This document shows, one piece after another, positions 39,385 to 46,177 of a stretch of 64,000 nt of DNA. The stretch is taken from contig CM059192.1 in assembly GCA_030323885.1 (NCBI GenBank), forward strand, positions 65,465,593 to 65,529,592, given 5' to 3'. The DNA comes from Branchipolynoe longqiensis. Its lineage: Eukaryota; Annelida; Polychaeta; Phyllodocida; Polynoidae. Position 1 is the stretch's first letter. Every line of letters begins with the position of its first letter. Below the pieces are notes generated by a model that saw only the letters and a list, made by a program, of their open reading frames with translations, searched no databases and was not told the origin of the DNA. The position numbers and the translations under genes are program-made.

Positions 39385-42300
39385 TGGTGAGGAAGATGCG
39401 GTAGCCCTTGTTGAGTTTGATTGTGTAACATAACGCCTGATGGCCCACTGACCTGGTGATGGTGAGGAAGATGCGGTAGCCCTTGTTGAGTTTGATTGTG
39501 TAACATAACGCCTGACGGCCCACTGACCTGGTGAAGGTGAGGAAGATGCAGTAGCCCTTGTTGAGTTTGATTATGTAACATAATGCCTGATGGCCCACTG
39601 ACCTGGTGATGGTGAGGAAGATGCGGTAGCCCTTGTTGAGTTTGATTATGTAACATAACACCTGACGGCCCACTGACCTGGTGATGGTGAGGAAGATGCG
39701 GTAGCCCTTGTTGAGTTTGATTGTGTAACATAACGCCTGACGGCCCACTGACCTAGTGAAGGTGAGGAAGATGTGGTAGCCCTTGTTGAGTTTGATTATG
39801 TAACATAACGCCTGACGGCCCACTGACCTGGTGATGGTGAGGAAGATGCGGTAGCCCTAGTTGAGTTTAATTGTGTAACATAACGCCTGACACCCCACTG
39901 ACCTAGTGAAGGTGAGGAAGATGCGGTAGCCCTTGTTGAGTTTGATTGTGTAACATAACGCCTGATGGCCCACTGACCTAGTGAAGGTGAGGAAGATGTG
40001 GTAGCCCTTGTTGAGTTTGATTATGTAACATAACGCCTGATGGCCCACTGACCTGGTGAAGGTGAGGAAGATGCGGTAGCCCTTGTTGAGTTTGATTATG
40101 TAACATAACGCCTGATGGCCCACTGACCTGGTGATGGTGAGGAAGATGCAGTAGCCCTTGTTGAGTTTGATTATGTAACATAACGCCTGATGGCCCACTG
40201 ACCTGGTGATGGTGAGGAAGATGCGGTAGCCCTTGTTGAGTTTGATTATGTAACATAACGCCTGACACCCCACTGACCTGGTGAAGGTGAGGAAGATGCG
40301 GTAGCCCTTGTTGAGTTTGATTATGTAACATAACGCCTGATGGCCCACTGACCTAGTGAAGGTGAGGAAGATGCGGTAGCCCTTGTTGAGTTTGATTGTG
40401 TAACATAATGCCTGACGGCCCACTGACCTGGTGAAGGTGAGGAAGATGCGGTAGCCCTTGTTGAGTTTGATTATGTAACATAATGCCTGATGGCCCACTG
40501 ACCTGGTGAAGGTGAGGAAGATGCAGTAGCCCTTGTTGAGTTTGATTATGTAACATAACGCCTGACACCCCACTGACCTGGTGAAGGTGAGGAAGATGCG
40601 GTAGCCCTTGTTGAGTTTGATTGTGTAACATAACGCCTGATGGCCCACTGACCTGGTGATGGTGAGGAAGATGCAGTAGCCCTTGTTGAGTTTGATTATG
40701 TAACATAACGCCTGATGGCCCACTGACCTGGTGATGGTGAGGAAGATGCGGTAGCCCTTGTTGAGTTTGATTATGTAACATAACGCCTGATGGCCCACTG
40801 ACCTGGTGATGGTGAGGAAGATGCAGTAGCCCTTGTTGAGTTTGATTATGTAACATAATGCCTGACACCCCACTGACCTGGTGATGGTGAGGAAGATGCA
40901 GTAGCCCTTGTTGAGTTTGATTGTGTAACATAACGCCTGATGGCCCACTGACCTAGTGAAGGTGAGGAAGATGCAGTAGCCCTTGTTGAGTTTGATTGTG
41001 TAACATAATGCCTGACGGCCCACTGACCTGGTAAACGTGAGGAAGATGCGGTAGCCCTTGTTGAGTTTGATTGTGTAACATAATGCCTGACGGCCCACTG
41101 ACCTGGTAAACGTGAGGAAGATGCGGTAGCCCTTGTTGAGTTTGATTGTGTAACATAACGCCTGACGGCCCACTGACCTGGTAAACGTGAGGAAGATGCG
41201 GTAGCCCTTGTTGAGTTTGATTGTGTAACATAACGCCTGACGGCCCACTGACCTGGTGAAGGTGAGGAAGATGCAGTAGCCCTTGTTGAGTTTGATTGTG
41301 TAACATAACGCCTGACGGCCCACTGACCTAGTGAAGGTGAGGAAGATGCGGTAGCCCTTGTTGAGTTTGATTGTGTAACATAACGCCTGACACCCCACTG
41401 ACCTGGTGAAGGTGAGGAAGATGCGGTAGCCCTTGTTGAGTTTGATTGTGTAACATAACGCCTGACACCCCACTGACCTGGTGATGTTGAGGAAGATGCG
41501 GTAGCCCTTGTTGAGTTTGATTATGTAACATAACGCCTGACGGCCCACTGACCTGGTGAAGGTGAGGAAGATGCGGTAGCCCTTGTTGAGTTTGATTATG
41601 TAACATAACGCCTGACGGCCCACTGACCTGGTGAAGGTGAGGAAGATGCGGTAGCCCTTGTTGAGTTTGATTGTGTAACATAACGCCTGACACCCCACTG
41701 ACCTGGTGAACGTGAGGAAGATGCGGTAGCCCTTGTTGAGTTTGATTGTGTAACATAACGCCTGACACCCCACTGACCTGGTGATGTTGAGGAAGATGCG
41801 GTAGCCCTTGTTGAGTTTGATTATGTAACATAACGCCTGACGGCCCACTGACCTGGTGAAGGTGAGGAAGATGCGGTAGCCCTTGTTGAGTTTGATTATG
41901 TAACATAACGCCTGATGGCCCACTGACCTGGTGATGGTGAGGAAGATGCGGTAGCCCTTGTTGAGTTTGATTGTGTAACATAACGCCTGACGGCCCACTG
42001 ACCTGGTGAAGGTGAGGAAGATGCAGTAGCCCTTGTTGAGTTTGATTGTGTAACATAACGCCTGACGGCCCACTGACCTGGTGAAGGTGAGGAAGATGCG
42101 GTAGCCCTTGTTGAGTTTGATTGTGTAACATAACGCCTGATGGCCCACTGACCTGGTGATGGTGAGGAAGATGCAGTAGCCCTTGTTGAGTTTGAATTAT
42201 GTAACATAACGCCTGACGGCCCACTGACCTGGTGAAGGTGAGGAAGATGCGGTAGCCCTTGTTGAGTTTGATTGTGTAACATAACGCCTGACGGCCCACT

Positions 42301-45300
42301 GACCTGGTGAAGGTGAGGAAGATGCAGTAGCCCTTGTTGAGTTTGATTATGTAACATAACGCCTGACGGCCCACTGACCTGGTAAACGTGAGGAAGATGC
42401 GGTAGCCCTTGTTGAGTTTGATTGTGTAACATAACGCCTGATGGCCCACTGACCTGGTGAAGGTGAGGAAGATGCGGTAGCCCTTGTTGAGTTTGATTGT
42501 GTAACATAACGCCTGACGGCCCACTGACCTGGTGAAGGTGAGGAAGATGCGGTAGCCCTTGTTGAGTTTGATTGTGTAACATAACGCCTGACGGCCCACT
42601 GACCTGGTGAAGGTGAGGAAGATGCGGTAGCCCTTGTTGAGTTTGATTATGTAACATAATGCCTGACGGCCCACTGACCTGGTGAAGGTGAGGAAGATGC
42701 GGTAGCCCTTGTTGAGTTTGATTATGTAACATAACGCCTGATGGCCCACTGACCTGGTGATGGTGAGGAAGATGCGGTAGCCCTTGTTGAGTTTGATTGT
42801 GTAACATAACGCCTGACGGCCCACTGACCTGGTGAAGGTGAGGAAGATGCAGTAGCCCTTGTTGAGTTTGATTGTGTAACATAACGCCTGACGGCCCACT
42901 GACCTGGTGAAGGTGAGGAAGATGCAGTAGCCCTTGTTGAGTTTGATTGTGTAACATAACGCCTGATGGCCCACTGACCTGGTGATGGTGAGGAAGATGC
43001 AGTAGCCCTTGTTGAGTTTAATTATGTAACATAACGCCTGACGGCCCACTGACCTGGTGAAGGTGAGGAAGATGCGGTAGCCCTTGTTGAGTTTGATTAT
43101 GTAACATAACGCCTGACGGCCCACTGACCTGGTGAAGGTGAGGAAGATGCAGTAGCCCTTGTTGAGTTTGATTGTGTAACATAACGCCTGACGGCCCACT
43201 GACCTGGTGAAGGTGAGGAAGATGCAGTAGCCCTTGTTGAGTTTAATTATGTAACATAACGCCTGACGGCCCACTGACCTGGTGAAGGTGAGGAAGATGC
43301 GGTAGCCCTTGTTGAGTTTGATTGTGTAACATAACGCCTGACGGCCCACTGACCTGGTGAAGGTGAGGAAGATGCAGTAGCCCTTGTTGAGTTTGATTGT
43401 GTAACATAACGCCTGACGGCCCACTGACCTGGTGAAGGTGAGGAAGATGCAGTAGCCCTTGTTGAGTTTGATTATGTAACATAACGCCTGACGGCCCACT
43501 GACCTGGTAAACGTGAGGAAGATGCGGTAGCCCTTGTTGAGTTTGATTGTGTAACATAACGCCTGACACTCCACTGACCTGGTGAAGGTGAGGAAGATGC
43601 GGTAGCCCTTGTTGAGTTTGATTGTGTAACATAACGCCTGACACTCCACTGACCTGGTGAAGGTGAGGAAGATGCGGTAGCCCTTGTTGAGTTTGATTGT
43701 GTAACATAACGCCTGACACTCCACTGACCTGGTGAAGGTGAGGAAGATGCGGTAGCCCTTGTTGAGTTTGATTGTGTAACATAACGCCTGACGGCCCACT
43801 GACCTGGTAAACGTGAGGAAGATGCGGTAGCCCTTGTTGAGTTTGATTGTGTAACATAACGCCTGACGGCCCACTGACCTAGTGAAGGTGAGGAAGATGC
43901 AGTAGCCCTGGTTGAGTTTAATTGTGTAACATAACGCCTGATGGCCCACTGACCTGGTGATGGTGAGGAAGATGCGGTAGCCCTTGTTGAGTTTGATTAT
44001 GTAACATAACACCTGACACCCCACTGACCTAGTGAAGGTGAGGAAGATGCGGTAGCCCTTGTTGAGTTTGATTGTGTAACATAACGCCTGACGGCCCACT
44101 GACCTGGTGAAGTTGAGGAAGATGCAGTAGCCCTTGTTGAGTTTGATTGTGTAACATAACGCCTGACACCCCACTGACCTGGTGATGGTGAGGAAGATGC
44201 GGTAGCCCTTGTTGAGTTTGATTGTGTAACATAACGCCTGACACCCCACTGACCTGGTGATGGTGAGGAAGATGCAGTAGCCCTTGTTGAGTTTGATTGT
44301 GTAACATAACGCCTGACACCCCACTGACCTGGTGAAGGTGAGGAAGATGCGGTAGCCCTTGTTGAGTTTGATTGTGTAACATAATGCCTGACACCCCACT
44401 GACCTGGTGATGGTGAGGAAGATGCGGTAGCCCTTGTTGAGTTTGATTGTGTAACATAACGCCTGACACCCCACTGACCTGGTGATGGTGAGGAAGATGC
44501 GGTAGCCCTTGTTGAGTTTGATTGTGTAACATAACGCCTGACACCCCACTGACCTGGTGAAGGTGAGGAAGATGCAGTAGCCCTTGTTGAGTTTGATTGT
44601 GTAACATAACGCCTGACACCCCACTGACCTGGTGATGGTGAGGAAGATGCAGTAGCCCTTGTTGAGTTTGATTGTGTAACATAACGCCTGACACGCCCAC
44701 TGACCTGGTGAAGGTGAGGAAGATGCGGTAGCCCTTGTTGAGTTTGATTGTGTAACATAACGCCTGACACCCCACTGACCTGGTGATGGTGAGGAAGATG
44801 CGGTAGCCCTTGTTGAGTTTGATTGTGTAACATAACGCCTGACACCCCACTGACCTGGTGAAGGTGAGGAAGATGCAGTAGCCCTTGTTGAGTTTGATTG
44901 TGTAACATAACGCCTGACACCCCACTGACCTGGTGATGGTGAGGAAGATGCAGTAGCCCTTGTTGAGTTTGATTGTGTAACATAACGCCTGACACCCCAC
45001 TGACCTGGTGAAGGTGAGGAAGATGCAGTAGCCCTTGTTGAGTTTGATTATGTAACATAACGCCTGACGGCCCACTGACCTGGTGAAGGTGAGGAAGATG
45101 CGGTAGCCCTTGTTGAGTTTGATTGTGTAACATAACGCCTGACGGCCCACTGACCTGGTGAAGGTGAGGAAGATGCGGTAGCCCTTGTTGAGTTTGATTG
45201 TGTAACATAACGCCTGACACCCACTGACCTGGTGATGGTGAGGAAGATGCAGTAGCCCTTGTTGAGTTTGATTATGTAACATAACGCCTGACACCCCACT

Positions 45301-46100: not shown

Positions 46101-46177
46101 CCAGTGGCAGTCTGGTAGTGGCTCAGTGCTGGCCCTGATCCGCCCCCGCTCCCCAGTCAGCTGCCCGCCACACGTGT
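46054..46177 (-). CDS. Exon: start of the second CUB domain, source of the array
   Basis: It follows a CTTACACAG acceptor, enters in phase 1 and leaves in phase 2. It encodes TCGGQLTGERGRIRASTEPL then PDCHWTIKLNKGYRIFLTF. The CGG-L-G-I and DC-W-I spacing is that of a CUB domain. The first donor, CACCAG|GTCAGT at 46053/46054, is also the repeat junction. If later donors in the array are used the exon would lengthen in 75-base steps. Confidence 0.82.

Follow-up and report, generated by a model that had tools for sequence, protein, structure and literature searches.

We analysed a window of 64,000 nucleotides (contig CM059192.1 of assembly GCA_030323885.1, positions 65,465,593 to 65,529,592; coordinates below are those of the window) in which the junction between a CUB-coding exon and its intron is repeated in tandem at least 89 times. 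The two exons concerned and the array lie on the minus strand. At 47154..47297 is a 144-nt exon of phase 1-1 coding for an EGF_CA domain (33.4 bits for a cut-off of 27); its edges were placed from splice signals, and an alternative acceptor is possible 4 bp upstream. It is followed at 46054..46177 by a 124-nt exon coding for the first half of a CUB domain, with a CAG acceptor at 46178-46180 and its first donor between 46054 and 46053. The CUB match (19.2 bits) is just below the cut-off of 21.4 and covers profile positions 1-44 of 110. Both exons are open, their splice signals are matched in phase and the EGF domain has its six cysteines. The solved structures nearest to the EGF and CUB pair are those of MASP-2 (E 5e-7, the best) and then C1s; for the EGF domain, an approximate stretch of BMP1 scored above one of MASP-2, so that the piece may be of the MASP/C1s or of the tolloid type.

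A tandem array of an exon edge and its donor

The array extends over 39385..46100 and comprises 89 units with a donor, plus one partial unit cut by an assembly gap. Tandem Repeats Finder delimited it at 39386-46100, with a period of 75, 89.5 copies and 95% matches. The 75-bp unit joins the last 47 bp of the CUB-coding exon (46054-46177) to the 28 bp with which its intron begins. This real junction is matched exactly by the array consensus, and 9 of the 87 alignable units (the 89 copies minus copies 12 and 19) are identical to it. The donor pattern [CT]AG/GTCAGTGG occurs 89 times on the minus strand, as CAG/GTCAGT in 78 cases and as TAG/GTCAGT in 11, from donor 1 (first intron base at 46053) to donor 89 (39452). 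Among the 88 spacings between consecutive donors, 85 are of 75 bp, two of 76 bp and one of 74 bp. Since all are of 74-76 bp, no complete unit between donors 1 and 89 lacks a donor, which is kept in 89/89 complete units. The register is broken by three 1-bp insertions or deletions (indels), after donors 12, 19 and 52. A 24-bp core of the intronic part of the unit, searched with up to 3 mismatches, was found 87 times in the window, always inside the array, and 0 times in 100 shuffles. An earlier note on this DNA had described an exon edge and donor repeated about 90 times, in a 75-bp unit equal to the junction itself, and both statements are borne out.

Towards the exon, the array gives way to unique sequence with no gap between them. 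On the intron side the final partial unit is interrupted, ahead of its donor, by an assembly gap of 21 N (39364-39384), so this end is unseen and the array may be longer. The alignable units fall into 43 distinct sequences, and a single three-unit run recurs, none being longer (in shuffles: mean 0.06, maximum 2); the array is hence not one block pasted repeatedly. It is a real tandem array of the exon edge and its donor, in at least 89 copies.

Phase and reading frame along the donors

Given the phase of the EGF exon, donors 1-12 produce an open exon with exit phase 2, a stretch that phase and translation place at 45229..46177 (minus strand). The single 74-bp spacing after donor 12 leaves donors 13-14 in phase 1, and read-through to donor 15 or later always meets a stop, after 376 codons. 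As assembled, phase and frame are kept by 12/89 donors, and an exit phase shared along the whole ladder is not supported. A stop in the unit's own register occurs twice, in copy 84 through a substitution and in copy 53 through an indel shift.

None of the three frames of the coding strand has a stop in the consensus unit, and the same holds for 153/5000 shuffled units. An open frame alone is therefore no evidence of coding, and the long open reading frames of the array were rejected as such. Used as query in a protein search, the read-through of donors 1-12 gave no match. Pfam matches of the array translation (for example Ac110_PIF, E 7e-32, though no single stretch passed) were judged to be driven by the repeat and disregarded.

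Variation among the copies

Columns and codons were counted on 83/89 copies, leaving out copies 12, 13, 19, 20, 52 and 53, which are near the indels. Variable columns number 10/47 in the exonic part and 6/28 in the intronic part (Fisher P 1.0). Different changes in full exon codons were nonsynonymous in 7/11 cases, one of them a stop, the share expected in the absence of selection being 74% (P 0.30 for so few). There is thus no sign of coding constraint in the exonic portion of the units, and the small numbers mean that a weak constraint may exist. Neither this variation nor the search with the read-through of donors 1-12 lends support to the coding 25-residue blocks that the earlier note had envisaged, and such blocks were rejected as the principal interpretation, with phase being lost past donor 12.

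Identity between units is 95.8% at distance 1 versus 93.7% at distance 80. That neighbours are slightly more alike is as expected of a minisatellite growing and homogenising locally. A special RNA structure at the junction was also considered and rejected: over 274 nt the z-score is 0.16, and 113/200 shuffles fold at least as well.

GET4 and the lineage of the host

The gene for GET4 (guided entry of tail-anchored proteins factor 4) has exons at about 26948-37149 on the minus strand, with best matches in Lingula, annelids and molluscs. Among the 120 of 367 matches listed, the joined GET4 pieces had their best E-values to Lingula, Owenia and Gigantopelta, at 56-59% identity; with these matches, a lancelet and a jawless fish were no longer favoured as hosts. 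A tree of 32 rows was built from the window and 31 named proteins taken from these 120 matches; it holds no lancelet row. The window groups with three annelids (92/89, a fork that is not starred) and stands outside 17 molluscs (100/99) and five deuterostomes (94/88). Against the annelid grouping, the highest pairwise identity in the tree, 67% over 205 columns, is with the bivalve Tegillarca. Judging from these sequences, the host is likely an annelid or a near relative, and a lancelet is unlikely.

Two 34-bp minisatellites of one family, at 30527-30700 and 31058-31225, lie in GET4 introns, the former ending some 12 bp short of the AG at the GET4 exon near 30512.

Comparison with known boundary duplications

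The earlier note knew of no described system of this sort. Such a system exists in lancelets, where 'mirages', minisatellite-like tandem duplications of exon-intron boundaries, have been described in Adh3, the globin genes BflGb6 and BflGb9, TnC and PGBD5. According to PMC3087553 and PMC3902484, units are 10-160 bp long, many carry AG/GT signals, and donor and acceptor sides are both affected; the globin and PGBD5 mirages described there have 2-7 units. The same papers state that regular splicing is undisturbed in Adh3, globin and TnC, with some units that could act as cryptic sites. For Adh3 and globin, reverse transcription PCR suggests that there is no interference with splicing, and for PGBD5 the undisturbed splicing is the authors' inference.

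The present array shares with these mirages a repeat unit that spans an exon-intron boundary (use of the junction being here deduced from sequence) and an AG/GT signal in the units, here in 89/89 complete ones. It differs from them in having at least 89 units, every complete one with a donor, versus 2-7 in globin and PGBD5; we claim no record of copy number, because this comparison covers the unit counts of globin and PGBD5. It differs too in that its host does not appear to be a lancelet according to the GET4 tree, which is itself without a lancelet row. As GET4 groups with annelids, we regard the array as a variant of the mirage kind outside the lancelet set. The boundary-spanning minisatellite is already known as a kind, and this array is a very large variant of it in what is probably another lineage.

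In the part of the literature covered, we found no report of such arrays outside lancelets, with the exception of a duplication in potato. There (PMC4974935), a tandem duplication likewise extends over an exon-intron boundary and takes splice signals along with it; it is a single duplication that made a new spliced intron, whereas the array described here is long and its splicing is a prediction. Earthworm metallothionein genes likewise hold large minisatellite arrays inside annelid genes, but these sit in intron 1, and the text covered does not describe them as reaching across an exon edge (PMC12783039). The same text reports exon duplications absent from the final transcript and a 5′ splice-site consensus GTYAGK, which the array donor GTCAGT fits.

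Other features of the window

A second, tiny boundary case is present on the plus strand at 22867-22954, where a 44-bp acceptor duplication with the junction TTTTCCAG/GAATCTGAAGC yields two 3′ splice-site copies 44 bp apart, their AG ending at 22899 and 22943. Behind it is an open, exon-like stretch of 62 codons that resembles a coiled coil (22944-23129, plus strand). Because the 64-kb window holds 31 tandem arrays, two boundary-spanning cases may be due to chance. No exon was recognised beside either of the minisatellites at 54264-55123 (67 bp x 12.8) and 49552-50106 (76 bp x 7.2). The window also contains a retroelement reading frame with reverse transcriptase and RNase H (57571-59136, minus strand) and a 492-aa open reading frame (904-2379, plus strand) with only a sub-threshold F-box-like match.

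Discussion

We lean towards the interpretation that the array is a very large mirage-like minisatellite located on an exon-intron boundary, the copies of which are likely removed as intron because the first donor is predicted to be the one used. The array would have originated in a duplication across the donor, with slippage or unequal exchange behind its later growth. One GT per unit is strong, with 8/9 matches to the 5′ splice-site consensus complementary to U1, CAGGTAAGT; the other four GTs match it at 3-4 positions. Exon definition would favour the first donor, since it selects an acceptor together with the nearest donor. The outcome would be an ordinary 124-nt exon, the remaining donors leaving with the intron. 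Later donors would be rarely used, and products from donor 15 on would carry a stop. The array would in this respect behave like the lancelet mirages, which are reported not to disturb regular splicing.

Several observations weigh against this interpretation. Searches of the window for the remaining CUB half, made by reading lists of open reading frames (of 35 aa or more above 46000; of 30 aa or more with at least 2 cysteines below 39400), with motif patterns and by tblastn with approximate MASP-2 and BMP1 sequences, did not find it, and the CUB exon may for this reason be no part of a live gene. No protein match was obtained with the EGF-CUB piece as query, and the GET4 exons follow downstream, on the strand that carries the EGF and CUB exons. 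Furthermore, the ten core columns of the donor are invariant. With 18 variable columns of 75, the probability of this by chance is about 0.05, which leaves room for selection on the donors; such a value also means that the youth of the array and homogenisation may suffice. Finally, when 5′ splice sites compete, SRSF1 favours the intron-proximal site and hnRNP A1 the intron-distal one, according to PMC5585400. As choice can be shifted either way, the first donor need not be the one used, and later ones may be used at times.

The missing CUB half, the fruitless EGF-CUB search and the GET4 exons downstream on the same strand (about 37149-26948) also argue for a dead or orphan fragment, that is, an EGF exon and half a CUB exon copied or left over, beside which a minisatellite grew without consequence and from which no protein is made. 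Adding to this, the stretch from 47313 to 64000 yielded no further recognisable EGF or CUB exon with lists of open reading frames, motif patterns and tblastn with approximate sequences. This explanation is a serious one, yet we consider it the less likely: open exons, phase-matched splice signals and six EGF cysteines speak against it, and a misjoin of the scaffold at the N gap, or very long introns, may have left the missing exons elsewhere. Either one of these two applies, or the piece is an orphan. An artefact in which the assembler made the length of the array, or its position beside the exon, is very improbable. The array does adjoin the 21-N gap, where copy number is unreliable, but the diversity of the units (43 distinct sequences among 87, with one recurring run of three and none longer) and the gap-free passage of its exon-side end into unique sequence are difficult to reconcile with such an origin.

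Two further explanations give the repeated donors a function. Exit at donors 1 to about 12 would be in phase, so that varying donor use would lengthen the CUB domain by 25-residue blocks, in a protein that may be complement-like or tolloid-like, with a copy number varying between alleles setting the number of blocks. Donors 1-12 are indeed open and in phase, and the donors are near-identical, but the copies show no sign of coding constraint, phase is lost after donor 12 and the protein search with the read-through gave no match. Each block would moreover repeat a piece of one CUB half, which is expected to spoil the fold. Taken together, we judge such a working ladder of splice sites improbable. 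Alternatively, many donors competing for U1 could act as a splicing trap that lowers or abolishes the mature messenger RNA, the length of the array tuning expression. One acceptor does stand beside many near-equal donors, but in the lancelet mirages, though with few units, regular splicing is reported to go on undisturbed, and we give this explanation the least credence.

If the gene is dead, the array is a curiosity of minisatellite growth. Studies of how a choice is made between near-identical 5′ splice sites usually rely on minigenes with few sites. The array would be an unusually large natural test of this choice by the spliceosome, with at least 89 near-equal donors at a fixed spacing of 75 nt facing one exon, and the breaks of register after donors 12, 19 and 52 would help to identify the donor used. 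The array suggests, too, that boundary-spanning minisatellites are not peculiar to lancelets.

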